Assembly: GCA_030533385.1 (NCBI GenBank)
Contig: JAUNJG010000012.1
Location: 1-48,792 of the forward strand
Direction of reading: 5' to 3'
Length of the DNA: 48,792 nucleotides
Origin: Eubacteriales bacterium
Lineage (GTDB): Bacteria > Bacillota > Clostridia > Lachnospirales > Lachnospiraceae
A model generated the notes under the pieces. That model did not search any database. It had not been told where the DNA came from and was given only the letters and a program-made list of their open reading frames with translations. Positions within the stretch are counted from its first letter, which is position 1. Each line of letters opens with the position of its first letter. Below are positions 10,873-45,961 of the stretch, one piece after another. The position numbers were made by a program, and so were the translations under genes.

Positions 10873-10901
10873 TTGCCGAAATCAAAAAAAGAAGTTATAA
10901 T
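10873..10901 (+). promoter_or_regulatory. sigma-A promoter of the hsdS-like/hsdM-like operon
   Basis: TTGCCG (10873-10878), a 17-base spacer and perfect TATAAT (10896-10901), 33 bases before the GTG start at 10934. Confidence 0.75.
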
Positions 10902-10933
10902 GGGAAATAACATGTGAAAGAGGGGAAAAGATA

Positions 10934-11527
10934 GTGGAACTTCTGCTGGAACAAATCAGCCGGATTACCCATGGGGTGGTGTTAAACAGGGTAAAACCTA
11001 AAATACAGAACGAGGGAATCGAATACCCGATATTATCGATCAGCCAGCTATTGGATGAAGAGAATGGCATCAGGGATTATGAGGTTCCTTCTGTTTTTGT
11101 GGACAAAAAAAAGGAAAATAACCTGAATCTGGCGAAGGAGAACAGCATTGTCATCGGTCTGACGTCCTTTCACCGGGCGGTGGTGCTGGAAAAACAGCAT
11201 GAGGGAAAAATCATACCTTCTAATTTTGTGTCCATAGAGTTCACGGACGGGATTATGGATCCCTATTATTTTGCATGGTATTTTAACGAGCATCCTGAGA
11301 TTAAGGCGCAAAGAAGCATTGCTATCCAGGGAAATTCTTCCGTAAAGGTTCTTTCGATACACATGATACGGCAGTTGATGATTGAATGTCCGGATTTGTC
11401 CACGCAGATGTCTATCGGCAAGCTTTATTATTACCAGAAAAGAAAACAGTTGCTTCTCATGGAAAAAATGGAGCTGGAGAGATCCGTGCTGACAGAAGAG
11501 ATGATGCAGCGGTTAAAAAAGATATGA
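10934..11527 (+). CDS. HsdS-like half specificity protein
   Basis: A 197-residue protein that looks like half of a type I restriction specificity subunit: one target-recognition-like domain (residues 1-150, with YPILSISQLLDEENG and an FVSIEF-type central strand) followed by a short helix (about 160-195) like an HsdS conserved helical spacer. Type I S subunits normally hold two such halves; a half protein would have to dimerise. It begins with GTG behind GAGGGG and lies 14 bases before an HsdM homologue, S before M, the reverse of the usual order. There is no HsdR gene here. Its assignment rests on fold-like features and on its partner. Confidence 0.65.
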   Translation: MELLLEQISRITHGVVLNRVKPKIQNEGIEYPILSISQLLDEENGIRDYEVPSVFVDKKKENNLNLAKENSIVIGLTSFHRAVVLEKQHEGKIIPSNFVSIEFTDGIMDPYYFAWYFNEHPEIKAQRSIAIQGNSSVKVLSIHMIRQLMIECPDLSTQMSIGKLYYYQKRKQLLLMEKMELERSVLTEEMMQRLKKI

Positions 11528-11541
11528 AAAGGTGAAGTACC

Positions 11542-12900
11542 ATGGATGAAAAACAATTACGTTATGAATTTTTATCAGTATCGGGGGAGAGCCATCCCGG
11601 CCTGACCTTCGAGGAATACAGAGATAGCTGCGTGTTCTTGCTGTTTTACCAATATCTGTGCCTGAAGTACGAGGACAAGCTGGAAGAGTGCTATCGGCCT
11701 GGTGCGCTGGTTCGGATGGCCATCAGAGGAAAGCTTCAGATACCTTCTTTTCTCCGCTTTATTGAGGCGGCTTCTCCCTTTATCCATCTGGCGGATCGTC
11801 ATTTTCAGCTCACAGAGTTTTCTTTTTTTAAAAATCTTCAAAAAGTGCAGCTTTTGGAAAAACAAAAAAGTTATGCTCGTTTTTTTAGAAAACTCATAAA
11901 AAAAATAGATGCCTGGGACTGCCATGAGCTTTTGCTGGAGGAGTATCCTCGTCTTTTCGGCGAGCTGATGGGAACCTTTGCCCGGATGAAGAAAGAAACC
12001 TACTTTTCTGAGGAGTTGCTGTCTTTGTACCGGATGTTTTTTTCGGAGACGGTGAAAAAACCGGAGGCGGTATTTCTGCCGAATTTTGAATATGGTCTGC
12101 TTTTGCAGGCAATGATGAAGGAAGGACAAAAAGATATTAAGATTTCCGGGTTTGAAGAGCATATCGGCTATCGGGAAATCTTTGAGATTCTTTGTGATAT
12201 GAAGGGGATTCCCCGCTCCGGGATGACGATTTGCTCCAAGGAGGAATGGAGAGGGGACGCCCTGTTTGACAGCATCGGCATTTTTATGCCGGAAGGAGTA
12301 GAAGGAGGAACTCTGATTGAGGCCGAACGACAGCCAAGGCTGGTGGCGGAGACGGCCGGCTCTATTGCAAAAGGAGAACTTCCTTTTTTGCTGTCCGCCC
12401 TTTCCTTTTTGCGGGAAGGAGGCACAATGGTAGCGGTGGTGCCTGGCGCATTGCTCTACCGGGAGGGGAGAGAGTCCCAGCTGCGCCGGTATATTGTGGA
12501 AGAAAAAAATTATCTGGATACTGCCATGCTTTTACCGGACGGCATGTTTCAGTCCACGGGACAAAAAGAGGTACTGTTGCTGTTCAGAAAAGGAAGAAAG
12601 AAAAAGGACGTCCTGTTTTTTGACTGTGGGGAGACGGAAGAGTTCGGAGAAGAACAGCTTCGCTCCATTTTGCTGGCGTGGAGGGAGAGGAAGACGATTC
12701 CCGGTTTTTGCAGCGCTGTCACCCAGGAAGTCATAGAAGAAAATGAGTTTAACTTGAATCTGCCCCGCTATATCACGAAGACAACCCATCTGTCCAAGGT
12801 GGACGTGGAGGCAAGAAAAAAACGAATCAAAGAAATTGACAGAGAATTACTGGAGATAGAAGAAAAGATTTTAATGTACAAAAGAGACCTGGAAATGTAG
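11542..12900 (+). CDS. HsdM-like protein without methylase motifs
   Basis: A 452-residue homologue of the type I methylation subunit. The architecture is retained: an N-terminal helical domain, then a methyltransferase-like core with the late motifs GGTMVAVVPGALLYREG (about 294-310), LPDGMFQSTGQKEVLLLF (about 331-348) and a C-terminal coiled coil. But motif I, DPxxGSG in the family, is replaced by LPNFEYGLLL (179-188), and the catalytic NPPF is absent; the matching place near 242-252 reads FDSIGIFMPEG. It should bind neither AdoMet nor catalyse methyl transfer. It is co-transcribed with the S-like gene, and 18 bases separate it from the lipoprotein gene downstream. Function unknown. Confidence 0.7.
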   Translation: MDEKQLRYEFLSVSGESHPGLTFEEYRDSCVFLLFYQYLCLKYEDKLEECYRPGALVRMAIRGKLQIPSFLRFIEAASPFIHLADRHFQLTEFSFFKNLQKVQLLEKQKSYARFFRKLIKKIDAWDCHELLLEEYPRLFGELMGTFARMKKETYFSEELLSLYRMFFSETVKKPEAVFLPNFEYGLLLQAMMKEGQKDIKISGFEEHIGYREIFEILCDMKGIPRSGMTICSKEEWRGDALFDSIGIFMPEGVEGGTLIEAERQPRLVAETAGSIAKGELPFLLSALSFLREGGTMVAVVPGALLYREGRESQLRRYIVEEKNYLDTAMLLPDGMFQSTGQKEVLLLFRKGRKKKDVLFFDCGETEEFGEEQLRSILLAWRERKTIPGFCSAVTQEVIEENEFNLNLPRYITKTTHLSKVDVEARKKRIKEIDRELLEIEEKILMYKRDLEM

Positions 12901-14500: not shown

Positions 14501-14517
14501 AAAAAGGTGTGAATACT

Positions 14518-17500
14518 ATGTCGAATACAACAAAAAATAATGCGGGAGCAGGTCAGCGGGCGGGCGGCAAAAAGGTGTCTGCCCCGAAAGCCTCTCAAAA
14601 GAAAAAACAGACGTCCTTTGGAAAAAAGAAAACGGAGGAGAAGGATCGGGGCATTCCGATGAAAAATGAAGTCTGGGTCATTGCCTCCTTCGGAATCATG
14701 GTGATTTTGATGTTGAGTAACTTTGGCTGGTGCGGAACCGTGGGCGTCTGGCTTTCCAGCTTTCTTTATGGAATCTTTGGCTGTGCCCAGTATGTGATGC
14801 CGGTGGCTTTCTTTTTGTTTGTCACTGCGCTGCTGGCCAACGATTTCAGCGTTCTTGCCATGAAAAAATGCGGGGCGGCCTTTCTCACCCTGACCATGCT
14901 GTCCTCCTATGTTCAGATTATTTATCAGGGAGAAGTGAAGAATTTTTATGATTTGTTTGCCACGGCAGTCAAGGATCACATGTCCGGCGGTATGCTGGGA
15001 GGAGGCATCGCCCTGCTCTTAAAACAGTGGTTTGGAACGCCCGGCGCCATCGTGATTATTTCCTGCGTGATGCTGTTGTCTCTGGTGGTGTTGACCCAGA
15101 GATCCTTTCTGCAATTTTTCCGGGAGAGGATGGAGAAGGGGAAGGCGCTGTGGAAAAATGGCCTGAAACGCCTTGAAAAAGAGAGACAAGAGAAAAAAGA
15201 GAAGGAGGAGAAAGAAAAGAAAGAGAAAATATCATTGGCGGATCGCATCCGGGCGAAAAAATGTGAAGAAAAAATAAAAGAGATAGAAGAAGAACAGATG
15301 CAGGCGGCGGCCGGGCAGCGCAGAGAAGGAGAAGGAGACAAAAAAGAAAAGACGAAAAAAACAGGTGTCAAAAAACAGCCTGAAATCAAAATACATATTC
15401 CGCTTTTTACGGACGAGCAGGAGGTAAAAAGAAAGGACGAGGTAAAAGAGCTGCACCCGGAAGTTTACCCGTTTACTGCGGAGGATGGAAAACCTCAGGA
15501 GTTTGACGGCAAGCTTGATTTTTCTGCCTTCTCCTTCCGAAGCGGCAAGACTCCGGAAGAGTTTGAGGAGGAGGTAAAGCAGACGTCCTTTGAGGAGGCC
15601 GTCTCAGAAATTTTGCGTCGAGAAAGGGAGCAGGAAGTTGTCGGGGAGGACGAAGCTCCGGAAGAAAAGGAAGGAGGTCTCCCGGAGGAGATCGTGCTGT
15701 CTGAGAAGAGGACGGATACGACCTTCGCCACAGATGGGGAGGGAGACTGGAACAAAGAAGATTGGATGAAAGAGGAAGATGCGGAGGAAGAGACCGGGGA
15801 TGTGTGGCCTCAAAAACCTGAGGACACGGCGGTGGAAGTGGTGCTGTCGGAGGAAGAAGAAGTGCTGTCGGCAGTGGAAAATCCCCAGTCTCGGAAGACG
15901 AAGGATGAAGAATCCGCTTCCGTCACATCGGCATCTCGGGAGGAGGCGGTGTTTGAGACTGTCAAGGAAGAGCCGGAACGGCTGGGTGGAGTGAAAAAGT
16001 CCACCTTGCAGGCACAGCGTAAGTCTGAGAAGCAGAGAAAGACGGAGATGGCGCCTGGGCAGCAGCCGAATGAAGAGAAGGAGACGTTAAAAAGACCAAA
16101 AAGTTACGAGACAGTCGAGGAGAGCAGACAGTATGTGTTCCCGCCGGTGAATCTTTTGGTCTATGAGAAACATACGCTGGCTCCGGATTATGATAAACAT
16201 CTGAAGGAGACTGCCATGAAACTGCAAAGCACTCTGGAAAGCTTTGGCGTTCATGTGACCATCACCGACATCAGTTGTGGTCCGGCGGTCACCCGCTATG
16301 AAATGTTCCCGGAACAGGGAACAAAAGTCAGCAAAATTGTATCTTTGACCGATGACATCAAGCTGAATCTGGCGGCTTCGGACATCCGGATAGAGGCGCC
16401 GATTCCAGGAAAGGCAGCCATCGGCATCGAGGTTCCGAACAAGGAAAACCAGACGGTACATTTCAGGGAGCTGGTGGACAGCCGGGTATTTCGGAGCTTT
16501 AAGTCCAAGCTGGCCTTTGCCGTCGGAAAGGATATTGGCGGAAAGATTGTGGTGGCTGATTTGGCAAAAATGCCTCATCTTCTCATTGCGGGAGCGACCG
16601 GATCAGGAAAGTCCGTCTGCATCAACACCCTGATTATGAGCATTCTTTATAAGGCGTCTCCATCGGAGGTCAAACTGATGATGATAGACCCGAAAATGGT
16701 GGAACTTAGTACATATAACGGGATTCCTCACCTTCTGATTCCGGTAGTCACGGATCCGAAAAAAGCTTCCGGTGCTCTGAACTGGGCGGTGGCAGAGATG
16801 ACGGACCGATACAAAAAATTTACGGAGTGCAGTGTACGAAACATCGAGGGATATAATAAGAAGGTGGATTCTCTGCTGGCTTCCGGCGAGGTAGAGGAAG
16901 GAAAACTGGAAAAAATGCCGCAGATAGTGATTATCATCGACGAGCTTGCGGACTTGATGATGGTCGCTCCCGGCGAGGTGGAAGATGCCATCGTGAGGCT
17001 TTCCCAGCTGGCCAGGGCGGCGGGGATCCATCTTGTGATTGCCACCCAGAGACCTTCCGTCAACGTCATTACCGGCCTGATCAAGGCGAATGTCCCATCA
17101 AGAATCGCCTTTTCCGTTTCTTCCGGCGTCGACAGCCGGACGATCATCGACATGAATGGAGCAGAAAAATTGTTGGGAAGAGGAGACATGCTCTTTTATC
17201 CATCTGGTTATCAAAAGCCGGTTCGAGTGCAGGGTGCCTTTATCTCTGATGCGGAGGTAAGTCGGGTGGCCGAATTTTTAAGGGAAAATGAGACGATGGC
17301 CGTGTATGATGCGGAAGTCTCGGAAAAAATTGAAAACAAAATAAAGAACAGCAGCGTCTCCAGTGAGAGAGATGAATATTTCGAGGCGGCAGCCCGCTTT
17401 ATCATGGAAAAGGACAAGGCGACCATAGGGATGCTGCAAAGAATGTTCAAAATCGGATTTAACCGGGCGGCTAGAATCATTGACCAGATGGCAGAGGCCG

Positions 17501-17589
17501 GAATCGTGGGGCCGGAAGAGGGAACCAAGCCAAGAAAAATCCTCATGACGCCAGAGCAGCTAGATGCTTTTTTTGAGGAGATGCTATAA
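14518..17589 (+). CDS. spoIIIE: DNA translocase FtsK/SpoIIIE
   Basis: A 1023-residue septal DNA pump that moves the chromosome across the closing division or sporulation septum. After a basic N-terminus come four membrane segments (residues 48-195). A long, highly charged Glu/Lys linker follows (about 200-530), longer than in Bacillus SpoIIIE. The motor carries Walker A GATGSGKS near 695 and Walker [12 protein letters not shown] near 805. The C-terminal gamma winged helix, from about 960, reads DNA polarity sequences. The start ATG 14518 has AAGGTG nine bases upstream; GTG at 14509 is possible. The tepA neighbour supports the assignment. The stop abuts a tnpB relic. Confidence 0.93.
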
Positions 17590-35111: not shown

Positions 35112-35149
35112 AAAAAAATACCGCAAACCCAGCGGTTACGGTATTTTTT
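35112..35149 (-). terminator. rho-independent terminator of the integrase gene
   Basis: AAAAAATACCG (35113-35123) pairs with CGGTATTTTTT (35139-35149), with CCGC/GCGG nested inside. On the minus strand it lies within and just after the last integrase codons. It is nearly symmetric, so it may work both ways. Confidence 0.75.
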
Positions 35150-36272
35150 CGATGTCAGAACGCAGCCATTCCAGATCACGGACAGTATAGACACCCTCGG
35201 TAACGTCTGTGATCCTGTGACCGGCAAGACGTTTGATGACCAGATTATCTATCCCTGCTTTTTTGGCCATGGTAATGAAGGTCATGCGGGGATCATGTGG
35301 TCTGTGCTCTGGATTCAAGTTAAGTTCTTCTACGACCTTTTTGAAGCGGCCGGCATACTTGTCATAGGTGATGTTGATGCCACCCTTGGTAGCTTTCGGA
35401 TCATTGAAGAGGAAGTTGCTGCCAAGCGAAAGCGCATAGTCATAATTCCGTTTGACCAGCGGCCTGATTCTGGAATGGATCGGGATAACCCGGTCTTTCC
35501 CAGCAGAGGTCTTCATGCCGGCCTGCATATACCATTCGTCCAGATGCACATCCTCCAGACGGAGCGTAGCAAGCTCCTGCGGACGCCACCCCATGTAACA
35601 TTGTATGAGAATCCAATCTGCAAACCGGATCGAATCAGCGGCGGACCACAAGGAGTCCATTTCGCTCTCGCTGAAAATAATGTGGCCACGGGTGGCAGCT
35701 TCCTTTTCTTTGATAATGTCTTCCGAGATGTCGAAGGTTCGGGCATAGTTTTTGTCTACGATCTCAAACTCCAAGGCATAGTCCAGCATAAGGTTGAACA
35801 TGGATTTGATACGGGCTTTTGTCCCAGGTGACGCAGGTATCTTCTCGCCGGCCTTTTTCCCACGGGAAGCGATGATATACCCGTCTTCCATTATCCCTTT
35901 GATGTGCCGGGCACGAAGATCCTTTACCCTCATTTTGCAAAGAGGGTGGCAGTATCGCCATGCGGCAACAATAGTTCTGGTTGAGCTTTCGCCGGAGAGG
36001 GTAGGGAAGTAAGACTCGGTCCATTTCTGATAAAGCTCCGCAAGCGTCAGATTATTATTTGCAATGTCGTAAGGGTTCGCCCCGTACTCGGCAAGAGCCT
36101 GCAGAGCTTCTTTCTTAGTCTTGAATGTGCCTATAGTGATGCGGTTTTGCTTCACGCTCTCTCCGTCAGCGTCCATGATCCAGCCGAGGGTAACACGGGC
36201 CAGGTAAGGTTTTCGGCGGTTCCCGGACAATTTGGTTACGCTCCCGTATCCGTTAGGGAGTTTCAATTTCAA
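35136..36272 (-). CDS. int: tyrosine-type phage integrase
   Basis: A 378-residue site-specific recombinase. An arm-binding AP2-like N-terminus (residues 5-60) contains the GNRRKPYLARV pattern. The SAM-like core-binding domain spans about 72-180, and the catalytic domain shows R230 (GWRPQELATLRL), K254, H326-DPR-R329, H352 and nucleophile Y362. The HxxR motif reads HDPRMTF rather than the common HDLRHT. It is transcribed leftward, toward the chromosome junction, with its terminator inside the last codons. An in-frame ATG behind AGAGGTGATTG serves as start. Confidence 0.93.
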   Translation of the reverse strand: MKLKLPNGYGSVTKLSGNRRKPYLARVTLGWIMDADGESVKQNRITIGTFKTKKEALQALAEYGANPYDIANNNLTLAELYQKWTESYFPTLSGESSTRTIVAAWRYCHPLCKMRVKDLRARHIKGIMEDGYIIASRGKKAGEKIPASPGTKARIKSMFNLMLDYALEFEIVDKNYARTFDISEDIIKEKEAATRGHIIFSESEMDSLWSAADSIRFADWILIQCYMGWRPQELATLRLEDVHLDEWYMQAGMKTSAGKDRVIPIHSRIRPLVKRNYDYALSLGSNFLFNDPKATKGGINITYDKYAGRFKKVVEELNLNPEHRPHDPRMTFITMAKKAGIDNLVIKRLAGHRITDVTEGVYTVRDLEWLRSDIEKIP

Positions 36273-36282
36273 TCACCTCTTT

Positions 36283-36859
36283 TCATAATTCTATGGTTTC
36301 GATGACATTCCCAAGGTTAGAAAAGTTCGTCTTTATCGGTCCGAGAGCGATGAGAGACTGAAGGCCGATTTTCTTCTGTTCCGGACACTCCTGATTAAGA
36401 ACTGCGGTAGGCAGCACGTAAAAATCCCAGAGGTCCAGATCCAGGATAGACTGATCTTTGCTTAAAGCGGTATAGACGCAGAAGACATAGAGATCAGAAT
36501 GCCTGACCACTTCCGGTGAATATCCGGATTCCGGAGTCCATGCCCGCTTCGGGGCGATGTCAAAGTTGATTTTGGAATAATAGTCCCTGGTCCACGATTG
36601 GAGGTAAGCGGCAGATTTTACCTCAACACGCCGCCCGGAAGGACTGGTTATATCATAGGGCATCCAGTCTATTCGCATTTGCGTGTTCGGGGGGGGGGGT
36701 AATCCGGGTAAGGGATTTTTCAACAAGGAACTCTGCCATTACCCCACGGGATGTATTATTGAGAAGATCAGAGTAGGCCCAGCTCCAGAAGTCGGAGAGG
36801 CGTATTCCGGTCTTGTCTCCGCGCAGAGTAAATTCCTCGTTTCCTGTGTATTGTTCCAT
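36283..36859 (-). pseudogene. PD-(D/E)XK nuclease-like gene split by an 11-base homopolymer
   Basis: The minus strand starts at ATG 36859 (AGGAGG seven bases upstream) with MEQYTGNEEFTLRGDKTGIR and reads through VMAEFLVEKSLTRITPPP. A run of 11 C (36699-36689) then shifts the frame and translation stops at 36653. Losing one C (10 in the run) joins it to the second frame, NTQMRIDWMPYDITSPSGRR then VEVKSAAYLQSW, giving one protein of 191 residues ending at 36283. The D-x8-EVK pattern with an upstream Glu helix suggests a PD-(D/E)XK nuclease fold. The gene may be phase variable, or the run may be a sequencing error. It lies between integrase and repressor, where phages keep accessory genes. Confidence 0.65.
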
Positions 36860-36867
36860 ATAGCCTC

Positions 36868-37176
36868 CTAGCTGCCGGCATAAGAAGAAAGGATGTCTTT
36901 GATCCCGGACAAATTGCCGGTAATGGCAAAACGCACCAGACTTCGGCAGTCGAAATCTGAGAAAGTTCCGTAGGAATGAACGCAAGAAAGAAGTTCATCA
37001 TCTGACAGACGCAGTACCCTCTGAAGCCTGCGGATCTTTTCTGCAGCCTGATATGGCAGGTTACCGGAATGAAAACCGGAGAGAAGCGAGGATATGTACT
37101 GCAGCAATGCGGCAGAGGGCATCCCTTCCTTTTCGGACTTTCTCGCAAGATGAAAGTATTGGGTTGATAGGTTCAA
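36868..37176 (-). CDS. small helical phage protein, unknown function
   Basis: A 102-residue all-helical protein with repeats like YISSLLSGFHSGNLPYQAAEK and LSDDELLSCVHSYGT. I do not recognise it. The start is TTG at 37176, with AAGGAG eight bases upstream; the ATG a few bases earlier is out of frame and stops at once. Its stop lies eight bases before the nuclease-like gene, so the two form a leftward pair read after the repressor. Confidence 0.65.
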   Translation of the reverse strand: MNLSTQYFHLARKSEKEGMPSAALLQYISSLLSGFHSGNLPYQAAEKIRRLQRVLRLSDDELLSCVHSYGTFSDFDCRSLVRFAITGNLSGIKDILSSYAGS

Positions 37177-37221
37177 TTCATCGTCTCCTTCCTGGCGGCC
37201 TGCGGTATTTTCTGGCCCACT

Positions 37222-37590
37222 CTAAACTGATAACTTCCCTTCTGCATCCAGATATTTGTCAGATTCGTGCGATCTCCGGTGAGCCTCCTCGATAATGCCA
37301 ACAATGCGCCACTGTTCACGTTCGGGAAGATCCCGGTAGAGGTTCAGGAAATAGTCTTCCTCGTCAGTAGTGGTTTTCCTGGGTGGAACATCCTTGCCGG
37401 TAAGCAGATAATCAAGTGTCACGCCGAGAAAGCTGGCAATGGTAGGCATATATTCCGCCGGGGGATTGCGCCTTCTGGACTTCCACGTAGACATGGTGGA
37501 CTGTTGGATGTTGAGAAGGTTGCACAGATCCACCGCCATCTTATTTTTCTCTTTGAGAAGTCTTGTGATCCTGTCGATTATAGTCTCCAT
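37222..37590 (-). CDS. XRE-family prophage repressor (CI-like)
   Basis: A 122-residue regulator. The N-terminal XRE helix-turn-helix has LLNIQQSTMSTWKSRRRNPP and FLGVTLDYLLTGKD, then a C-terminal helical tail (YFLNLYRDLPEREQWRIVG) that probably dimerises it. No peptidase domain is present, so induction must go through another route than RecA-driven self-cleavage. ATG 37590 was preferred because GGAGG sits eight bases upstream and overlaps the possible GTG start. Operators with TACGAA lie directly upstream in the divergent control region. It heads the leftward group. Confidence 0.88.
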   Translation of the reverse strand: METIIDRITRLLKEKNKMAVDLCNLLNIQQSTMSTWKSRRRNPPAEYMPTIASFLGVTLDYLLTGKDVPPRKTTTDEEDYFLNLYRDLPEREQWRIVGIIEEAHRRSHESDKYLDAEGKLSV

Positions 37591-37611
37591 AAGCACCTCC
37601 GCATAAAAATA

Positions 37612-37762
37612 ATTCGTCAGATACGAATAAAATACTTTACAAATACGCAGATACGAAGTATAATATATATATAAAACAAAACAAATTCAAACGTGCGAGG
37701 TTGTGAGTTTCGATGTTTTATAGCATCTGCGTATTTGTTTGTGAATCCGTATTCATTATAAC
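37612..37762. promoter_or_regulatory. divergent repressor/Cro control region with operators
   Basis: The gap between the leftward repressor and the rightward Cro-like gene holds related sites. They are ATTCGT-cagat-ACGAAT (37612-37628), ATACGCAGATACGAA (37643-37657), CATCTGCGTATTTG (37724-37737, the reverse of the second site) and GAAT-ccgt-ATTC (37743-37754). The leftward promoter is TTGTTT near 37682-37677, a 16-base spacer and TATACT (37660-37655). The rightward promoter is TTGTTT (37735-37740), a 16-base spacer and TATAAC (37757-37762). Sites overlap both promoters, as in a lambdoid switch. Confidence 0.7.
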
Positions 37763-37813
37763 ACGCAGTTGCGAAAAAATAAAGCGTGAATACGAGAAGG
37801 GAGTGAAAAGCAA

Positions 37814-38251
37814 GTGTGTGTTACAAATGAGACGTTCGCCAGTTTGCAGGAATGGGGAATCGAGGTGAGAAAAGCCTGTCTCGACAGAGGTGAAAACCTG
37901 CATACCGTATCGGAGGCAATCGGTCATAGCTATTCTGCGATTACATCATTGATAAGCGGCAGGGTAGTAAAGACGAACTACCTGGAGATCGCAAAGAAAA
38001 TCAATGACCATCTCGGTGTTACGATTCTTCCGAAGAAACCGCAGCTTCCGTCAAACGAATGGTGCGCTGCTGTTCGTACAAAGCTGTTCATGCAGAAAAT
38101 GAGCATCGGTCAGTTGTCGGAGGAAACCGGGTTTAGCCGTGACAGATTATCTTTGGTGCTTAACGGACACACAATGGACGATCCGGTGATTGAAAGAATC
38201 AACGGGGTTCTCAATATTGAAGTCCCGGTGATCCCTTCAAGCTCTGAGTAA
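37814..38251 (+). CDS. tandem helix-turn-helix Cro-like regulator
   Basis: A 145-residue protein made of two similar helix-turn-helix units. Unit 1 (about 12-70) reads EWGIEVRKACLDRGENLHTV then SYSAITSLISGRVVK. Unit 2 (about 82-137) reads EWCAAVRTKLFMQKMSIGQL then SRDRLSLVLNGHTMD. Both start with EW...VR, place a conserved serine-rich turn and end with a G-rich linker, so an internal duplication is likely. It starts with GTG about 10 bases after GGGAG. As first rightward gene opposite the repressor it fits Cro or an antirepressor. Confidence 0.75.
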   Translation: MCVTNETFASLQEWGIEVRKACLDRGENLHTVSEAIGHSYSAITSLISGRVVKTNYLEIAKKINDHLGVTILPKKPQLPSNEWCAAVRTKLFMQKMSIGQLSEETGFSRDRLSLVLNGHTMDDPVIERINGVLNIEVPVIPSSSE

Positions 38252-38279
38252 ATTATAACGGAAAGACAGGTAGAACAGA

Positions 38280-38774
38280 ATGGGGAATGGCCCTATGAAA
38301 GAGAACACGAATATTTATTTTCAGGCAAGAAAAGAGGCGTCAAAAGGGGATGCGAGGCTTTTTAACCGTGACTTTGCAGCTGAACAACTCGGAGTTGCGT
38401 CTTATACGTTGGGAGAATACGAGAGAGGCGTAACAAAGGTGGTTCCGATAGACAAGGTGGTATTGATGGCCGACCTTTACAATAAGCCGGAGCTGGTAAC
38501 AAACTACTGCCGGCATGAATGCCCGGTACACGGTTTTCTTCCGCTTGCTACTGAAGATAAGGGAATCCAGGGAATCACACTGAGACTGCTCAATGGACTG
38601 GACGATGACGATCTGGATGAAATGAAGTCAAAGCTGATCGACATAGCGGAGGACGGAGAGGTGTCCGATGAAGAAGTGGCAGAGCTGAGAAAGATCGTAG
38701 ATCAGCTTACCAAGATAGCAGAAGTGATCAGCGAGCTTAAAATTGCCGCCGAGAAGAGACTGAAAGGAAGATAG
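38280..38774 (+). CDS. XRE-family phage regulator
   Basis: A 164-residue protein. The N-terminal part (about residues 10-55) is a helix-turn-helix with FAAEQLGVASYTLGEYERG and VVLMADLYNKPELVTNY. A CRHECPVHG motif near 78 may bind zinc, and the C-terminal half is a long acidic helix rich in DDDLDEM and EEVAELRK. The start at 38280 has AGGTAG upstream; the next ATG at 38295 is also possible. It is the second gene of the rightward early operon and probably controls early expression or copy number. Confidence 0.75.
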   Translation: MGNGPMKENTNIYFQARKEASKGDARLFNRDFAAEQLGVASYTLGEYERGVTKVVPIDKVVLMADLYNKPELVTNYCRHECPVHGFLPLATEDKGIQGITLRLLNGLDDDDLDEMKSKLIDIAEDGEVSDEEVAELRKIVDQLTKIAEVISELKIAAEKRLKGR

Positions 38775-38786
38775 GGGGTAGGCTTT

Positions 38787-38987
38787 ATGAGGAAGAGAAT
38801 GATATGGGTACTCGACAATGTAATTCCTGTTTTGGCGGGAATTGCAGCGACAACGGCGGCTGTGGATTACGCCAATGAATGGCGGGGTTATATGGCATAT
38901 GGTAGCGAGTGGCTGGTATTCCCGGTCACAATTTTTATTTTGAGGAGGGCATTCAAAATTGCCAGGACAATGAAAGGGGGGAACTGA
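38787..38987 (+). CDS. small membrane protein
   Basis: A 66-residue protein with two hydrophobic segments (about residues 7-27 and 42-54) separated by a short polar loop, and basic ends. No family is recognised. The start has GGGGGT about nine bases upstream. Its stop lies just before the next GTG start, so it is coupled to the zinc-ribbon gene. Confidence 0.65.
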   Translation: MRKRMIWVLDNVIPVLAGIAATTAAVDYANEWRGYMAYGSEWLVFPVTIFILRRAFKIARTMKGGN

Positions 38988-38992
38988 GAAGC

Positions 38993-39226
38993 GTGTGTGC
39001 AGAGTGCAGGATGACGATATGCAGCAGCAGATGTCCAAACGCACCGGAGCCTAAAGCGGTTTATACGTGCAGCAGGTGCGGATACGGAATCTTTGAAGGG
39101 GACAGCTTCTATGATGGACCGGAAGGGTATGTGTGCGAGTGCTGCATAGAAGAAATGTCTTCAAAAGAATTCATGGAAATGATAGGGGAGCAGATGAAAA
39201 CGGCAGAAAGAGAGGCGATAGCATGA
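38993..39226 (+). CDS. small zinc-ribbon phage protein
   Basis: A 77-residue protein with paired cysteines: CAEC and C-SSRC near the N-terminus, then CSRC and CECC around residues 25-50, arranged as a double zinc ribbon with a DSFYDGPEGYVC turn between. The C-terminus is a helix ending in MKTAEREAIA. Start GTG 38993 is eight to twelve bases after GGGGGG; the earlier in-frame ATG at 38909 lies inside the preceding gene with no ribosome site. The stop overlaps the recT start (ATGA). Confidence 0.65.
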   Translation: MCAECRMTICSSRCPNAPEPKAVYTCSRCGYGIFEGDSFYDGPEGYVCECCIEEMSSKEFMEMIGEQMKTAEREAIA

Positions 39227-40143
39227 CAGATCAGATGACACAGGGAAATGCACCGGCAGTACAGGGTCAGGGTAAAGAAGTTCCGGTTGTGAATCAGGTA
39301 AAAGCAATGCTTTCTGCAGAAAATGTGCAGAAAAGGTTTACAGAGGTTCTGGGAAAGAAAGCACCTCAGTTCATGGCGTCCATTACAAATACGGTCTCCG
39401 CAAGTAAGCAGCTGAAGCGGTGTCCGGCCAACTCCATTCTCAGCGCAGCTTTTGTGGCCGCAACCTACGATCTTCCAATAGACAGCAATTTGGGGTTTGC
39501 GGCAATCGTGCCTTATAACGAGAGCGTGTACGACAAGCAAAATGAGGAATGGGTAAAGGTTCCGAAGGCTCAATTCCAAATGATGTACAAAGGTTTCATA
39601 CAGCTGGCGATCAGATCCGGATACTACGAGAAAATGAATTATGCGGTAGTGTATGAGGATGAGATGGAATCGTACAATCCAATCACGGGTGAGGTGAAAT
39701 TTGTTGACGATTTCAGCCAGTGTACGCAGAGGGATGCAGGGGATGAAAAACATGTTGCCGGATATTACGCATGGTTCCGGTTGAAAACCGGATACAGCCA
39801 GGAACTGTATATGTCAAAGAAGGCAGTAGATAATCACGCAAGAAAGTATTCACAGGCGTACAGATATGACCTCAATAACAGAAAGAAATCCAGCAAGTGG
39901 ACTACGGACTTTGAGGCTATGGCACTGAAAACGGTGATCAAACTGTTGCTCAGCAAGTGGGGAATCCTGTCAGTGGATATGCAGAGGGCAATCCAGGATG
40001 ACCAGAAAACCTATGACGAAGACGGAGAGGGAACCTACGGCGATAATAAGCCGGACGTCATAGAGGCGCAGGACCCGTTTGAGACAGATGGGCCAGAGGA
40101 AGATGATTCCGTAGTGGAGGATGTTGATATAGAGAGTATGTAG
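39223..40143 (+). CDS. recT: RecT single-strand annealing protein
   Basis: A 306-residue phage annealase that pairs complementary single strands during recombination. The core shows FMASITNTVSASKQLKRCPA, SILSAAFVAATYDLPID, GFAAIVPYNE, QFQMMYKGFIQLAIRSG and a C-terminal ALKTVIKLLLSKWGI helix; the tail is acidic. It starts on an ATGA overlap with the zinc-ribbon gene and sits 13 bases before the exonuclease gene, the usual RecT-exonuclease order. Confidence 0.93.
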   Translation: MTDQMTQGNAPAVQGQGKEVPVVNQVKAMLSAENVQKRFTEVLGKKAPQFMASITNTVSASKQLKRCPANSILSAAFVAATYDLPIDSNLGFAAIVPYNESVYDKQNEEWVKVPKAQFQMMYKGFIQLAIRSGYYEKMNYAVVYEDEMESYNPITGEVKFVDDFSQCTQRDAGDEKHVAGYYAWFRLKTGYSQELYMSKKAVDNHARKYSQAYRYDLNNRKKSSKWTTDFEAMALKTVIKLLLSKWGILSVDMQRAIQDDQKTYDEDGEGTYGDNKPDVIEAQDPFETDGPEEDDSVVEDVDIESM

Positions 40144-40156
40144 GAGGAAATGACAT

Positions 40157-40954
40157 ATGGTTTTAACGGCTGAAAATTACTACAGCAGAGAAGCGAATGA
40201 GGAGTTCATGAGTGTGTCTCAGTTCAAGGATTTTTCCGGAACATATGGGAAGATGGCCTGCGAGTTTGCGGCATATGAAAAGCTGAAGGAAAGATGGGAG
40301 GAACCGAAATCAAAGGCCATGATGGTCGGAAGCTATGTGGATTCCTACTTCGAGGGGACGCTGGACAGATTCAAACAGGACAATCCGGATCTTTTCAAAA
40401 GAGACGGGGGCCTTAAAGCGGAATATGAGAAGGCAGATGAAATCATAGCGAGGATCGAGAGAGATGCATATTTCATGAAATACATGAGCGGCGAGAAGCA
40501 GACCATTATGACCGGCGAAATGTTTGGGGCCAAATGGAAAATAAAGATGGACAGCTACATTCCGGACGTTGCCATTGTGGATCTGAAAATCATGTCATCG
40601 ATCACGAAGTTGGAGTGGGTGCGAGACATTGGATATTTAGATTTTGTTCGGTACTGGGGCTATGATATTCAAGGCGCAGTCTATCAGGAAATCGTTCGGC
40701 TGAATACCGGAAAGAAGCTGCCATTCTTCATAGCGGCTGCCACAAAAGAAGCGGAGCCAGACATCCGGATCATCCACGTCACGGATAATTATCTGGTAGA
40801 AGCGCTGAACATCGTCCAGATGAATATGCCGAGAGTCCTCAGAGTGAAAAGCGGAGAAGTGGAGCCAGACAGATGTGAGCTGTGTGATTGCTGCAGAAAG
40901 AACAGGGTGCTGAAACGCCCGATCTCAATCACAGATCTGACGGCCGCTATTTGA
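40157..40954 (+). CDS. PD-(D/E)XK exonuclease, RecE-like
   Basis: A 265-residue nuclease partner of RecT that should resect double-strand ends. The acidic core is visible as MVGSYVDSYF, then IPDVAIVDLKIMSSI (D-x-DLK, residues about 133-150). A QGAVYQEIV helix follows. The C-terminus carries clustered cysteines (C-ELC-DCC-RKN), reminiscent of iron-sulfur RecB-family nucleases, though a fourth ligand is not obvious. It follows recT behind AGGAGG. Confidence 0.85.
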   Translation: MVLTAENYYSREANEEFMSVSQFKDFSGTYGKMACEFAAYEKLKERWEEPKSKAMMVGSYVDSYFEGTLDRFKQDNPDLFKRDGGLKAEYEKADEIIARIERDAYFMKYMSGEKQTIMTGEMFGAKWKIKMDSYIPDVAIVDLKIMSSITKLEWVRDIGYLDFVRYWGYDIQGAVYQEIVRLNTGKKLPFFIAAATKEAEPDIRIIHVTDNYLVEALNIVQMNMPRVLRVKSGEVEPDRCELCDCCRKNRVLKRPISITDLTAAI

Positions 40955-40965
40955 GGAGATGGCGT

Positions 40966-41688
40966 ATGGCAGAGAAGAAATACTATTGGCTGAAGCTGGG
41001 ACCTGATTTCTTTCAGGACAAGGCAATAAAGAAACTGCGGAAGATAGCCGGAGGCGATACATACACGATCATTTATCAGAAGATGCTGCTGCTGGCGATC
41101 CAGCAGGGAAACAGGCTTTACTTTGAAGGCGTGGAGGACACTTTCGCTGCAGAGCTGGCTCTGGAACTGGACGAGGACGAAGAAAATGTGGCAGTTACCT
41201 GTTCGTTTCTGGAGAAAAAAGGTCTCATGAAAGTCATGAGCGAGGAGGAATTTTTGCTGACGCAGTGCGAAGAGTTGGTTGGCTCCGAGACGGATGCGGC
41301 CAGACGGAAGCGAAAGCAGAGAAATCTTGAAAGACTATCCGGGATGAAGCAGGAAGCTCTTCCGGAAAAGAAGGCAGGTAAGGAGACACAGATCCAGATA
41401 TTTCTCCGACTGGTTGATGACTATGCGATCTCTGATCCGGTGAGAGAAAAGATGCAGGTGTGGTTCAAATACAAGACAGAGCGGAAAGAAAACTACAAGG
41501 AGCAGGGCATGAAGTCTCTGCTGAAAAGAGTAGAGACAAACGCCGCAAAGCATGGAGATCAGGCTGTATGCGACCTGATAGACGAATGTATGAGCAGCAA
41601 CTACGCAGGGATCATCTGGGACAAGCTGGCAAGGCAGTTACCACGAGGAGGAATCCAGAACCGAGTAAGTGAGGTAGATAACTGGTAA
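40966..41688 (+). CDS. phage replisome organizer N-terminal domain protein
   Basis: A 240-residue protein. The N-terminal domain (about 1-110) begins YYWLKLGPDFFQDKAIKKLR, the typical opening of phage replisome organizers, a winged-helix origin-binding module, with TIIYQKMLLLAI and FLEKKGLM. The C-terminal half is charged and would contact the loader or helicase. The ATG at 40966 follows GAGGAG; the longer frame upstream lies in the exonuclease gene. Its stop overlaps the next ATG (TAATG). Confidence 0.85.
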   Translation: MAEKKYYWLKLGPDFFQDKAIKKLRKIAGGDTYTIIYQKMLLLAIQQGNRLYFEGVEDTFAAELALELDEDEENVAVTCSFLEKKGLMKVMSEEEFLLTQCEELVGSETDAARRKRKQRNLERLSGMKQEALPEKKAGKETQIQIFLRLVDDYAISDPVREKMQVWFKYKTERKENYKEQGMKSLLKRVETNAAKHGDQAVCDLIDECMSSNYAGIIWDKLARQLPRGGIQNRVSEVDNW

Positions 41689-42341
41689 TGGAACGGGAAG
41701 AATTTAAAATTCTGGCAAAGAGCATGAAAGCCGTGTATGCGCAGCCTACATTCCTTCCGGATCAAGACGCTTTCAATGTATGGTATGCGCTCCTGAAAGA
41801 TCTTCCGTATGAGCTGGCGAGTATGGCAATACAAAAGCATATGATGACCGAGAAGTTCCCTCCGACCATTGCAGACATCCGGTCCAAGGCATTTGAGATG
41901 ATGGAGAAACCTGTAGAGGAAATGAGCGAGCTGGAGGCGTGGGCGATTGTCAGGAAAGCGATTGGAAGATCAGGATACTATTCGGAGGAAGAGTTTGAGA
42001 AACTTCCGGAAGCCTGCCGCATTGCGGTTGGTAGTCCAGCCAACCTAAGAGAGTGGGCGCTGATGGATTCGGATGAGGTGGCAACGGTTGAGCAATCGCA
42101 TTTTATCCGGAATTACAGAGCCGCCGTCAAGAGAATGGCAGAGGATAAGAAGCTGCCGCCGGCATTCCGGGAGCGGATAGCAGAATCCAGGCAAAAGTAC
42201 ACGGCTTTGAACAGCCGGGATCGTCAGGAGATCGAAAAGAAATCGGAGGAAGAGGAACCAAAGAAGGAAGAACGGCACTCTGAAATGTCGGAAGAGATAC
42301 GGAGAAAGCTGGACGAATTGTTAAGGGGAATAAGAACATAG
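41688..42341 (+). CDS. replicative helicase loader/inhibitor-like protein
   Basis: A 217-residue protein. The first 75 residues, with ILAKSMKAVYAQPTFL, FNVWYALLKDLPYELASMAI and FPPTIADIR, match the G39P/loader N-terminal domain found in phage helicase loaders. The middle is helical; the tail is highly charged with KSEEEEPKKEERHSE. Translational coupling to the replisome organizer (one-base overlap) supports a role in helicase loading at the phage origin. Confidence 0.8.
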   Translation: MEREEFKILAKSMKAVYAQPTFLPDQDAFNVWYALLKDLPYELASMAIQKHMMTEKFPPTIADIRSKAFEMMEKPVEEMSELEAWAIVRKAIGRSGYYSEEEFEKLPEACRIAVGSPANLREWALMDSDEVATVEQSHFIRNYRAAVKRMAEDKKLPPAFRERIAESRQKYTALNSRDRQEIEKKSEEEEPKKEERHSEMSEEIRRKLDELLRGIRT

Positions 42342-42349
42342 GAGGCAAT

Positions 42350-42547
42350 ATGGTACAGGGTGACAAGGTTACATTGGAAAAGGTGGCAGAACTCAGTTTA
42401 TATGAATGGGAAGACAGAGCAAAGGTAGCAACGGCGCTTCTGAAAAATGGATATACCATCGGTCCGGGAAAGAGAAAAAAGACACCGACCGGGAAGCAGC
42501 TGGATTATTACCTGGAAGTGTACAAGAAAGAGGAGACGGATGAATGA
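42350..42547 (+). CDS. small phage protein, unknown function
   Basis: A 65-residue basic protein: VAELSLYEWEDRAKVATALL then KKTPTGKQLDYYLEVYKK. I do not recognise it. AGGAGG lies five bases upstream of the ATG. Its end overlaps the earlier possible rusA start, consistent with tight packing. Confidence 0.65.
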   Translation: MVQGDKVTLEKVAELSLYEWEDRAKVATALLKNGYTIGPGKRKKTPTGKQLDYYLEVYKKEETDE

Positions 42548-42582
42548 GTATATCTGAGGCGGCAGATGCGGAAGGAGAGGTT

Positions 42583-43020
42583 ATGAAGAGTATAAGATTC
42601 TCAATACCGGGCCAGCCCATGGGTAAACAGAGGCCCAGGGTGATCCATAACGGATCTTTCACACGGGCTTACACACCGAAAGAAACGGTGGCGTATGAGA
42701 ACCTGGTGAAAGTGAAGTTCCAGGAAGCGGCGAAAGGGAGGAGGTTCGCTGATGAAGATATGCTGGACGTGAGAATCATTGTTTACTACGGCATACCGAA
42801 ATCCACGAGCAAAAGGAAAAGAAAACTCATGCTGGAGCATAAGATCAGGCCGGGTAAAAAGCCAGACTGGGATAATGTGGGAAAGGTCATCTGCGATAGT
42901 CTGAACACGGTAGCATACCACGATGACAGCAGCATTGTGGACGCCCAGGTGAGGAAATTTTATTCCGAAAGGCCGAGAGTTGACGTGACGATCCGGAGAA
43001 TCGATCCGGGAGAAATTTAG
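42583..43020 (+). CDS. rusA: RusA-like Holliday junction resolvase
   Basis: A 145-residue endonuclease that cuts four-way junctions. The motif pattern is FSIPGQPMGKQRPRV at the N-terminus, then YTPKETVAYENLVK, then the catalytic acidic segment KKPDWDNVGKVICDSLNTVAYHDDSSIVD with two Asp residues, and ending VTIRR. I prefer ATG 42583 because AAGGAGAGG lies three to four bases upstream; ATG 42544 would add 13 residues and overlap the previous stop. Confidence 0.9.
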   Translation: MKSIRFSIPGQPMGKQRPRVIHNGSFTRAYTPKETVAYENLVKVKFQEAAKGRRFADEDMLDVRIIVYYGIPKSTSKRKRKLMLEHKIRPGKKPDWDNVGKVICDSLNTVAYHDDSSIVDAQVRKFYSERPRVDVTIRRIDPGEI

Positions 43021-43030
43021 GAGGTGGCTT

Positions 43031-43255
43031 GTGAATAAGCAGAGAAGAAAAAGACTCGGAGAGGCGTTTGATAAGCTGAGCGAAATACAGGAGATCTTGG
43101 AGGAAGTGAAGAACGATGAGCAGGAAGCTTACGATAACCTTCCGGAGAGTTTTCAGTATGGAGAGCGTGGAGAGGAAATGCAGAACTATATTGAGATGAT
43201 CGAGGAAGTGGATGGATATATCGAGGACGCAAAATCGGTCATTGAGCAGATTTAA
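43031..43255 (+). CDS. small coiled-coil phage protein
   Basis: A 74-residue acidic protein that is almost entirely helical (KLSEIQEILEEVKNDEQEAY, MIEEVDGYIEDAKSVIEQI). GTG start with AGGAGG eight bases upstream. Seen in phage recombination clusters; function unknown. Confidence 0.65.
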   Translation: MNKQRRKRLGEAFDKLSEIQEILEEVKNDEQEAYDNLPESFQYGERGEEMQNYIEMIEEVDGYIEDAKSVIEQI

Positions 43256-43270
43256 AGGAGGATATGGTAT

Positions 43271-44359
43271 ATGGCAGAAGAAATGGTACGGGCAGAAACA
43301 GTGGAGGCGCCGCCGGCAAAGATGGAATTTCGGCTGATAAATCCTACAGAGGCGGGTTTCCTCAAACATATTGAGTGGAACAAAGAGGAGCTGGAGGCTG
43401 CGGTCAGGGCGAAGGTGGACAGCTACAAAGGAATCGTATACACGGAAGACACCTTGAAAAGTGCAAAAGCAGATAGGGCAGAACTGAATAATCTGCTGAA
43501 AGCGATTGAGGACCGAAGGAAAAAAGTGAAGGAGATCATCAATCAGCCGTATGCGGACTTTGAAAAAGAACTGAAAAGCGTCACCGCACTTATTAAGAGC
43601 CAGACGGAGGAAATCGGGAAGCAGATCGACAGTTTTGAGGATCGTCAGAGAGAAGAAAAGAAGCAGAAAATCCAGGAAGCGTATGATTTGGCCATCGGCG
43701 ATCTGAAGGAAGTTCTTCCGTTCACGAAGGTTTTCGATCCAAGGTATCTGAATAAAACATATAAGCTGAATACGGCGATTTCCGAAGTGAACGCCAGAAT
43801 AGAGAAAGTGAAAAGGGACCTTGAAACTATTGAAAGCGTCTGCGGGAAATATGCCCTCAACGCAAAAGACGTGTATGTAAGGACACTGGATCTGTCGAAA
43901 GCCCTGGCGGAAGAAAAGCGTCTGAAAGAGCTGGAAGAAAAGCTGGAGGCTGAACGCATCCGGAAAGAAAAGGAAGCAGAGGAGCGTAGAAAGGACGAGG
44001 AGCAGCGAAGGATTGAAGCCGAGCGCCTGAGAAAAGAAGAGGAGGAGCGCAGAGCGGAAGCAGCAAGGGCGGCAGAGCAGGCAAAGGCGCAGCAGAAAGA
44101 GGAAATCCCGTGGCAGGACGAAGCTGCAGTGCAGGAGATAGCTGAAGCGGTTACAAGCGGGATGAGTATTCCGGAAACGGAACAGGTTCAGCCGGCACAG
44201 GAAGAACAGGCGGTTGATCCGTTCGAGCAGAAAAAGCAGGAACCCGCACCAGAGAAAAAAGTCAGAGCGAAATTCTTTGCTATAGGCACCAGAGAGCAGT
44301 TAAAAGCGCTGACTCAGTACATGAAAGACAACGGAATCAAGTATGGAAAGGTGGAGTAA
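43271..44359 (+). CDS. DUF1351 phage protein
   Basis: A 362-residue protein of the DUF1351 type. The N-terminal half (about 18-200) has FRLINPTEAGFLKHIEWNKEEL, KADRAELNNLLKAIEDRRKKVK and FTKVFDPRYLNKTYKL. A long, charged coiled coil (about 215-285, alternating Lys-Glu-Arg) follows, then a proline-glutamate linker and a C-terminal FFAIGTREQLKALTQYMKDN segment. Such proteins accompany recT and resolvase genes; role unknown. The ribosome site AGGAGG is nine bases from the ATG. Confidence 0.85.
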   Translation: MAEEMVRAETVEAPPAKMEFRLINPTEAGFLKHIEWNKEELEAAVRAKVDSYKGIVYTEDTLKSAKADRAELNNLLKAIEDRRKKVKEIINQPYADFEKELKSVTALIKSQTEEIGKQIDSFEDRQREEKKQKIQEAYDLAIGDLKEVLPFTKVFDPRYLNKTYKLNTAISEVNARIEKVKRDLETIESVCGKYALNAKDVYVRTLDLSKALAEEKRLKELEEKLEAERIRKEKEAEERRKDEEQRRIEAERLRKEEEERRAEAARAAEQAKAQQKEEIPWQDEAAVQEIAEAVTSGMSIPETEQVQPAQEEQAVDPFEQKKQEPAPEKKVRAKFFAIGTREQLKALTQYMKDNGIKYGKVE

Positions 44360-44363
44360 CGAC

Positions 44364-44966
44364 ATGAGCGATTTTGTGAAGAAGCTGAATTTTGAGAGCG
44401 ATACGTTCAGTGACATGAAAAGGGATATGAATTTTGTTCTGCAGAGGCTCCTGGGAAATATGCAGGAAAAAGGGGCAACAGAGGGAAGCATGACTCTGAA
44501 AGTGGAGATCAGCCTTGCGGAAGAGTATATTCCGAATTACGATCCGGAGATCGAGGGAGAGAGCAGAAAGATCAGCAAGCCGAAGTTCAAGCACAAGGTG
44601 ACATCATCTGTTCAGATCAAAGATGAGAAATCCGGAAACCTGGACACGGAGATGGAGCTGACCTTCGATGAGGATACCGGAGAGTATATCATGCAGCCGG
44701 TAGCAAATACGGAGCAGAGAACTATTTTTGATAAGGATTTTCAGGACAGCATGAACGCCCCGGAGGAAGAGGGTAAGTCGTCCGGCATTCCGCAGCTTCC
44801 CGGACCGGCAGAGGACGATGTTGTGGATGCGGAATACAATGAGGTTGAGGAAGAAACTGAGGGAGAAGAGCTGGAAGACATCACAGACGAGATCATGAAG
44901 GATATGGAATCTGGCGATTCGGAGGACGATGCTGACGATTATGATTACGATGATCCGGAAGAGTAG
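44364..44966 (+). CDS. acidic phage protein, unknown function
   Basis: A 200-residue protein. The N-terminal half is a helix pair (FVKKLNFESDTFSDMKRDMN, then LQRLLGNMQEKG) plus a beta region with SMTLKVEISLAEEYIPNYD. The last 60 residues are almost only Asp and Glu, a DNA-mimic-like composition. The start ATG 44364 was chosen for its GGTGGAG site; the longer frame to 44343 lies in the preceding gene. No family is recognised. Confidence 0.7.
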   Translation: MSDFVKKLNFESDTFSDMKRDMNFVLQRLLGNMQEKGATEGSMTLKVEISLAEEYIPNYDPEIEGESRKISKPKFKHKVTSSVQIKDEKSGNLDTEMELTFDEDTGEYIMQPVANTEQRTIFDKDFQDSMNAPEEEGKSSGIPQLPGPAEDDVVDAEYNEVEEETEGEELEDITDEIMKDMESGDSEDDADDYDYDDPEE

Positions 44967-44981
44967 GGAGGAAAAAAGCGC

Positions 44982-45086
44982 ATGAAGCTCAGCAAGAAAG
45001 ACAGAATGACCAGCTATGTGTTAAGAGCGAATAAACTTATGAGTTCCGGAAATCCGGGAGAGGCGAAGAAAATGCTTTCCAACTGA
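44982..45086 (+). CDS. short phage peptide
   Basis: A 34-residue basic peptide starting MKLSKKDRMTSYVLRANKLM, with GGGAGG eleven bases before the ATG. It stops directly in front of the next gene's ATG. The overlap-free junction and ribosome site support it as real; function unknown. Confidence 0.55.
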   Translation: MKLSKKDRMTSYVLRANKLMSSGNPGEAKKMLSN

Positions 45087-45296
45087 ATGAAATATTACAG
45101 CGGGAAGGTGATTAAGGCAATCAGTCCATATGCGTCAGCCGATGCAGGGCTTTTGTCATTCACTCTTCGCACCTTGGCACACGAAGTAGAGGAGGGCCAG
45201 CCTGGATCAAAAGAACTGAGAGAAGAGCTGGAGCGGATTACGAGCGGAGTATTAAGCAAAGCCACAGAGAAGGTACAGAAACCTACAGCGAGGTAA
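45087..45296 (+). CDS. small phage protein, unknown function
   Basis: A 69-residue protein (YYSGKVIKAISPYASADAGL, then SFTLRTLAHEVEEG) with a helical C-terminus. It starts immediately at the stop of the 34-residue peptide, so translation is probably coupled; its own ribosome site is weak. No family is recognised. Confidence 0.55.
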   Translation: MKYYSGKVIKAISPYASADAGLLSFTLRTLAHEVEEGQPGSKELREELERITSGVLSKATEKVQKPTAR

Positions 45297-45299
45297 GGA

Positions 45300-45623
45300 A
45301 TGAGCGGATATAAATTAGTCCATCGGAGAATCCAGCAGGAGGAGAAGAGGCTGCAGTCCGTTTATGACGGTATGCCGATAAAGGGAAAGGGCACACGGGA
45401 AGATACCCAGAAGAGAGTTCTTCGGGAAATGCAGGAGATGACATTCCTTCTGGCCAGAGAGTGCAATATCCTGGTGAACTATCCGAAACTCAGCATACAA
45501 GGAAACAAGGTGGTTTTAGGGCCGCCAACGATATTGCTTCCGGATTGCAGATATGTAACGTTTGAACAGTTAAAGGAGCTGGAAATCAGCGAGATAAAGC
45601 GAAGGGAGGTGAAGAAGGGATGA
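45300..45623 (+). CDS. small phage protein, unknown function
   Basis: A 107-residue protein with basic helices (HRRIQQEEKRLQSVYDGMP, EDTQKRVLREMQEMTFLLAR) and a short beta segment (LSIQGNKVVLGPPTILLPDC). The upstream stop overlaps its GTAAGGA ribosome site. It overlaps the next gene by four bases. Unknown function. Confidence 0.6.
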   Translation: MSGYKLVHRRIQQEEKRLQSVYDGMPIKGKGTREDTQKRVLREMQEMTFLLARECNILVNYPKLSIQGNKVVLGPPTILLPDCRYVTFEQLKELEISEIKRREVKKG

Positions 45624-45874
45624 AAGGTGAAGGAGGCGGGAATTTCGGACAGTGCAGGGCTTGTGGCGCAAGAATCATGTGGATCAAGACCAAGAACGGG
45701 AAGAATATGCCGGTTGATCCTCAGTTCGTGGACTTTAAGACGAAGGCCGGAGGAAAGGAGAGGATCGTCACCCCTGCCGGTGATGTCGTAGCTGGTGAGC
45801 GGTGTAAGGCCGGCGAAGCGGACGGGTACGGGTACATATCCCATTTCGCAACCTGTCCAAGCTACAGAAGATAA
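45620..45874 (+). CDS. zinc-ribbon phage protein
   Basis: An 84-residue protein with CRACGARIMWIKTKNGKNMP near the N-terminus and a distal CPSYRR tail preceded by GYISHFATC. The CxxC plus distal Cys/His pattern fits a small zinc ribbon of a type common in phages. ATGA overlap with the previous gene. Unknown function. Confidence 0.7.
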   Translation: MKGEGGGNFGQCRACGARIMWIKTKNGKNMPVDPQFVDFKTKAGGKERIVTPAGDVVAGERCKAGEADGYGYISHFATCPSYRR

Positions 45875-45887
45875 GAAAAAGGCCGCC

Positions 45888-45950: not shown

Positions 45951-45961
45951 AGGTGGCACCA

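Follow-up and report, generated by a model that had tools for sequence, protein, structure and literature searches.

What becomes of a type I modification unit when its methyltransferase loses the residues that methylate? The question is raised by two neighboring genes in the window (the whole stretch of 48,792 nucleotides analyzed here), which belongs to the genus Anaerobutyricum (Lachnospiraceae): a half-size HsdS-like protein (S) is encoded ahead of an HsdM-like protein (M) in which the usual catalytic motifs cannot be recognized. The first-pass annotation, made from the letters of the DNA, had proposed that the two are a repurposed, non-methylating type I pair, either a DNA-binding or regulatory complex or a component of defence. 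The repurposing is supported by what follows, and the DNA-binding or regulatory branch is favored over defence; the function itself we infer.

Architecture of the pair and its lost catalytic motifs

The features of the locus are collected in Table 1. Both reading frames are intact in the window sequence, and a promoter like that of the window, with small changes, was found again upstream of S in the near relatives L067–L072, L074, and L077. The proposed absence of an HsdR nearby was likewise borne out: the four window ORFs longer than 600 aa are an ABC transporter ATPase, FtsK, a ClpC-like ATPase, and a topoisomerase, leaving no HsdR-sized ORF unnamed among them.

Table 1. Features of the S–M locus, in window coordinates
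Feature	Position	Strand	Basis
Half-size HsdS-like protein, 197 aa, one target-recognition domain (TRD) and C-terminal helix, GTG start	10934..11527	+	Profile/homology matches
HsdM-like putative pseudo-methyltransferase, 452 aa, without motifs I and IV, C-terminal half kept	11542..12900	+	Profile matches, alignment
Former AdoMet loop (motif I), codons 179–185, LPNFEYG	12076..12096	+	Aligned to DPAAGSG of EcoR124 HsdM
Former catalytic motif IV, codons 248–251, FMPE for NPPY	12283..12294	+	Alignment
S–M promoter, TTGCCG-17-TATAAT	10873..10901	+	Sequence; similar in relatives
GTTAT-N8-ATAAC interrupted palindrome over the −10, candidate operator	10894..10911	.	Same place in L069–L072, L083
ftsK/spoIIIE DNA translocase, downstream neighbor in 14/15 loci	14509..17589	+	Synteny

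The family membership of M is clear in profile searches. PF02384 (N6_Mtase) matches the window protein at E 9.1e-23, over residues 265–415 only, and matches 16/16 of the genus M proteins (best 2.6e-32); the NCBIfam hsdM model gives 78.9 bits, under its cut-off of 242.75. A profile of the genus M proteins finds the HsdM of 3lkd at 2e-31 and the EcoR124 HsdM (7bst) at 4.1e-26, the latter over columns 123–443, so the part of M that PF02384 leaves unmatched has diverged and was not deleted. In the register of the EcoR124 alignment, both the AdoMet loop and the catalytic motif have been replaced (Table 1), in agreement with the first-pass annotation, and the loss is not peculiar to the window: the canonical motifs I (DPxxGSG) and IV (NPPF/Y) are found in none of 16 aligned species, and neither in any of the 20 members, two being partial, that were correctly parsed among the 22 genus M matches (of the other two, one was read in a wrong frame and one not parsed). 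To judge from these motifs, M is probably no longer able to methylate DNA. M is also distinct from MAD2 of methylation-associated defence, scoring 13.4 bits against NF047738 where the cut-off is 720.

Divergence along M is uneven. Mean pairwise identity over the 16 species is 0.556, rising to 0.79 in residues 1–45, lying at 0.54–0.62 in the C-terminal parts and falling to 0.395 in the least conserved region, the former AdoMet half (residues 176–265), a drift that relaxed constraint would explain no less well than a new role for this region. Cysteines 30, 40, 362, and 390 of M are invariant in 16/16 species, and a metal or redox site is possible.

The homology of S is more modest. Its best match among the PADLOC type I specificity models is at 5.1e-8, and residues 2–188 match the half HsdS of locus L087 (E 2.6e-10), a complete type I locus with an intact-motif M, a full-size S and an HsdR (Pfam). 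The search with Methylase_S (PF01420) that had been suggested as a check succeeded in part: it gives a weak match in 7/16 genus members, the best at 0.0014, but none for the window S itself at E ≤ 1. Against PDB sequences S has no match at E ≤ 0.1. By length and alignment, S carries one TRD.

The layout of the pair, by contrast, is less odd than it had seemed. S is indeed half-size and encoded first, as the first-pass annotation stressed, but four other loci (G306, L058/L088; G247, L062; G342, L063/L087; G623, L110) encode a half S ahead of an intact-motif M, so the arrangement is not unusual in itself; at L088, an HsdR-like fragment was seen, by eye only. These loci share the gene order and the S size of the window pair and differ in that their M keeps DPxxGSG and NPPF/Y, and they likely represent the kind of ancestor from which the pair arose. 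In comparison with type I restriction–modification HsdM/HsdS (EcoR124, 7bst; 3lkd), homology extends over columns 123–443 of M and most of the length of S, in a two-gene unit, whereas HsdR and motifs I and IV are wanting and S is conserved where a type I S is variable. By homology, then, the pair appears to descend from type I modification enzymes but to fail their defining catalytic tests.

Enzymes with half-size S subunits are known. PMC2877798 describes an engineered half-S enzyme that dimerises and reads the split palindrome GAAN7TTC, PMC6158711 one that dimerises and reads ACCN5GGT, likening half-HsdS dimers to homodimeric transcription factors, and PMC3874165 half-S chains that dimerise and read split palindromes. 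As these half-HsdS homodimer enzymes are presented there (EcoR124INT, the M–half-S of CC398, NgoAV), each S chain has one TRD, like the window S, and the target is a split palindrome; they methylate, however, while in the window pair methylation should be impossible. A further likeness is to CamA of Clostridioides difficile, which is described as an orphan methyltransferase-family protein present throughout a lineage, as is M; CamA is active and methylates CAAAAA, whereas M is predicted to be inactive. In the literature covered, mostly open access and outside bioRxiv, we found no paper on the pair and none whose title and abstract concern an HsdM/HsdS that is dead and domesticated.

Two further arrangements with altered motifs were observed in Lachnospiraceae. 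A second half-S and M pair, its M 49% identical, lies at L084:6971–9008 (G288) and L085:7500–9573 (G150), with DFSCGVG and SAPPI in one and DFSCGAG and SAPQL in the other; by eye, it is near serine-recombinase-like and XRE-like genes, and pairs of this type are present in 2/299 family genomes at E ≤ 1e-20. At L086:1–3590 (G185), a half S is followed by an M with DMPL at the place of motif IV and, after it, by what by eye is another HsdM-like ORF, running off the contig end; the two M genes could be a dead/live pair.

Distribution, neighborhood, and selection

The pair is close to universal in Anaerobutyricum and close to absent elsewhere. M homologues are found in 22/24 genomes of the genus and S homologues in 20/24, A. 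hallii DSM 3353 being among those with S; each is present in 11/11 good genomes (completeness ≥ 90%, contamination ≤ 5%), and the genus genomes without a match are 70–84% complete. Across 397 family genomes, sampling 334 genera, M is matched at E ≤ 1e-25 in three: that of the window, another Anaerobutyricum, and G319, the sole match outside the genus, which covers residues 263–443 only. S reaches E ≤ 1e-8 in 11/397, nine of them outside the genus at 24–36% identity, and among 344 order genomes E ≤ 1e-10 is reached in two, the window's own and a 26% match.

The position of the pair is fixed as well. S–M lies upstream of ftsK in 14/15 loci examined, the contig of the 15th ending after M; a solute-binding protein gene and tepA stand between in many loci, and folD, rimO, and pgsA follow beyond ftsK wherever the contig reaches. 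On the other side, the neighbor is pnp in L074–L078 and L082 (named in L076, and in the others by identical printed sequence) and a ferredoxin-domain gene in the window and L067–L072. Trees of S, M, FolD, and RimO, compared by eye, have no well-supported conflict, many branches of the poorly resolved S and FolD/RimO trees being unresolved. Distribution, synteny, and trees together indicate vertical inheritance of the pair as a core locus of Anaerobutyricum.

Selection on the pair is purifying. By a simple Nei–Gojobori count, dN/dS is 0.007–0.036 for S and 0.044–0.119 for M, next to 0.084–0.130 for FtsK, 0.028–0.046 for FolD, and 0.070–0.087 for RimO; the ratios come from two to four pairs per gene, some of them near saturation (dS up to 2.9), other pairs being saturated at synonymous sites and giving no ratio. 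None of the 22 genus M matches has an internal stop. The first-pass view that the pair is maintained and not decaying thus agrees with the ratios well below 1 and the unbroken frames, and the survey of relatives that it proposed found the motif loss conserved genus-wide within the same neighborhood. It had also held that intact-motif homologues at this locus, decayed frames or the want of a structural-family match would speak against it; neither of the former was seen, and for the latter the profile match of M to an HsdM of known structure is clear, that of S modest.

Within the pair, the pattern of conservation is inverted relative to that of the live type I systems of the same genomes. Live HsdS varies in its TRDs. 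In G003, G004, and G023, the live HsdM proteins are 83–95% identical and the neighboring HsdS 36–67% (one of the three live S frames compared being only 215 aa), whereas in the window-type pairs of these three genomes M is 53–74% and S 84–96% identical. More widely, the window S is 81–91% identical to that of 15 other genus loci, and in the alignment its TRD region is the most conserved stretch of the whole pair. A TRD so nearly frozen points to an unchanging DNA target.

What the pair may do

We consider it probable that the pair is a domesticated, non-methylating, site-specific DNA-binding complex derived from a type I unit and serving as a regulator or architectural protein. A unit of half HsdS and HsdM would have been captured, probably once, upstream of the ftsK operon in an ancestor of Anaerobutyricum, and then domesticated. 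HsdM would have lost AdoMet binding and catalysis and retained its C-terminal half and N-terminal domain, so that the surfaces holding HsdS were probably kept. On homology, two half-S and two M chains are expected to pair into an S2M2 clamp that encircles DNA at a single, unchanging interrupted palindrome and leaves it unmethylated, and the conservation of the TRD suggests that DNA binding has persisted. Such a complex may regulate the chromosome at specific sites or shape its architecture, with a plausible link to the segregation that depends on FtsK; the adjacency to ftsK could also be passive.

Type I parts are usually parts of defence, and the pair descends from a restriction system and has an S that matches PADLOC models, so a component that recognizes DNA entering the cell, and then obstructs it or raises a signal with no methylation involved, has to be weighed. 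We think this unlikely, since the locus is a fixed, vertically inherited core locus with a near-frozen TRD, the same properties on which the DNA-binding or regulatory reading is favored. No nuclease gene was seen moving along with it, and without methylation self DNA could not be marked. Relatives of S were not found in viral contigs or phages; 12 plasmid records match S, at 30–32% identity over less than half of its length among the 10 matches listed. Where live-looking HsdM genes are also present, as they are in several genomes including the window's own, the pair could conceivably supply accessory or decoy subunits and so modulate a live type I enzyme of the same cell. In 10/24 genus genomes, however, one 97% and another 100% complete, PF02384 has no match at E ≤ 1e-10 other than the dead M, which is nevertheless free of stops; the pair seems not to need a live type I enzyme, and this role is very unlikely.

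The pair might, on the other hand, have given up DNA altogether and become a protein- or RNA-binding scaffold, working for example with PNPase or FtsK, as its neighbors include pnp in several species and, at nearly every locus seen, ftsK, and as M evolves faster than S; with the DNA-reading TRD region the most conserved stretch of the pair, we regard this as quite improbable. The same fast evolution of M, fastest of all in its AdoMet half, would suit a slowly decaying relic kept by chance, to which 22 matches without stops and dN/dS well below 1 leave the smallest share of our belief. Hardly more credible is a still active methyltransferase with unusual motifs: the fold family is kept, and at the place of motif II G203 is invariant with an E or D as the second residue after it in 15/16, but in 16/16 motif I no longer has its D and first G, nor motif IV its N.

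If the DNA-binding reading is right, the pair shows how, in nature, a restriction–modification unit can become a complex that has given up catalysis, binds DNA at a specific sequence, and is kept in a housekeeping role throughout a genus of gut bacteria that make butyrate. Genes of this kind are apt to be entered in databases as restriction–modification, and surveys of methylomes or of defence systems could miscount them. An S more conserved than its M would serve as a simple screen for more type I units that have been domesticated, and a TRD so frozen should let binding assays find the DNA target.

Interrupted palindromes as candidate sites

A lead to such a target is the palindrome overlapping the −10 of the S promoter in the window, L069–L072, and L083 (Table 1). 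When 293 kb of genus loci were scanned for split palindromes with 5-base half-sites, four of the 15 best were located, and GTTAT-N8-ATAAC had seven copies, six at S promoters. The half-sites ACATG and TGGAT, found mostly at seemingly orthologous places, and ATCTG, with 6/12 copies inside the S gene, were set aside. Over 24 genomes, exact GTTAT-N8-ATAAC has 149 forward matches against 55 for the reversed control, and only 19 of 44 copies examined in six genomes are intergenic by a simple ORF call; GTTATTT-N4-AAATAAC with at most one mismatch has 148 against 26. The commonest recurrent copy of the latter, among the matches listed, lies inside a coding gene in 12 genomes examined (which we take to be yggS) and was dropped.

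A fuller palindrome, TGTTATTT-N4-AAATAACA, stands upstream of a gene for a XerS-like recombinase (NCBIfam XerS 1e-52, under cut-off), a gene present in 97/100 family genomes. Exact GTTAT-N8-ATAAC occurs within 350 bases upstream of xer in 10/20 parsed genus loci, or 10/18 orthologues, two of the 20 being G013 paralogues, and in none of the 27 outgroup loci parsed (of 29). One further orthologue carries 14 of the 16 palindrome positions; the site is missing in the other seven (the window's genome, A. hallii, G004, G011, G015, G018, and G020). With at least 14 of 16 positions required, there are 14 matches in the 293 kb of genus loci, which are orthologous so that the matches are not independent: 11 at ftsK, two upstream of S, and one elsewhere. 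The 210 kb of outgroup loci, which are of lower GC, count about 10 kb twice and leave out the ftsK upstream regions, hold none. At 13 or more positions, the ftsK site is present in 12/15 loci, those without it being the window, L067, and L073; at 12 or more, the genus loci give 61 matches and three shuffles 33, 24, and 33. Some copies (L072, L077, L082, and L251) resemble terminator hairpins by eye.

With the xer site missing in 7/18 orthologues and the ftsK site missing in the window's own genome, we do not claim the palindrome as the target of S, and its binder may be S–M or any other regulator. That the pair is a genus-specific regulator that binds TGTTATTT-N4-AAATAACA at its own, the ftsK, and the XerS-like promoters, and in this way ties its abundance to the segregation of chromosomes and the resolution of dimers, is a doubtful extension.

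A palindrome like GTTATACT-NNN-AAATAAC was also observed 40–140 bases upstream of a YgjP-like metallopeptidase gene in L124, L135, L139, and L160, from three Anaerobutyricum genomes, the gene being confirmed by Pfam in L124 and assigned by eye in L135, L139, and L160; a fourth Anaerobutyricum genome has a similar site (L154). Elsewhere in the window, the stretch 35136–48792, with a tyrosine integrase (35136–36272) and a RecT (39133–40143), may be a prophage or similar element.
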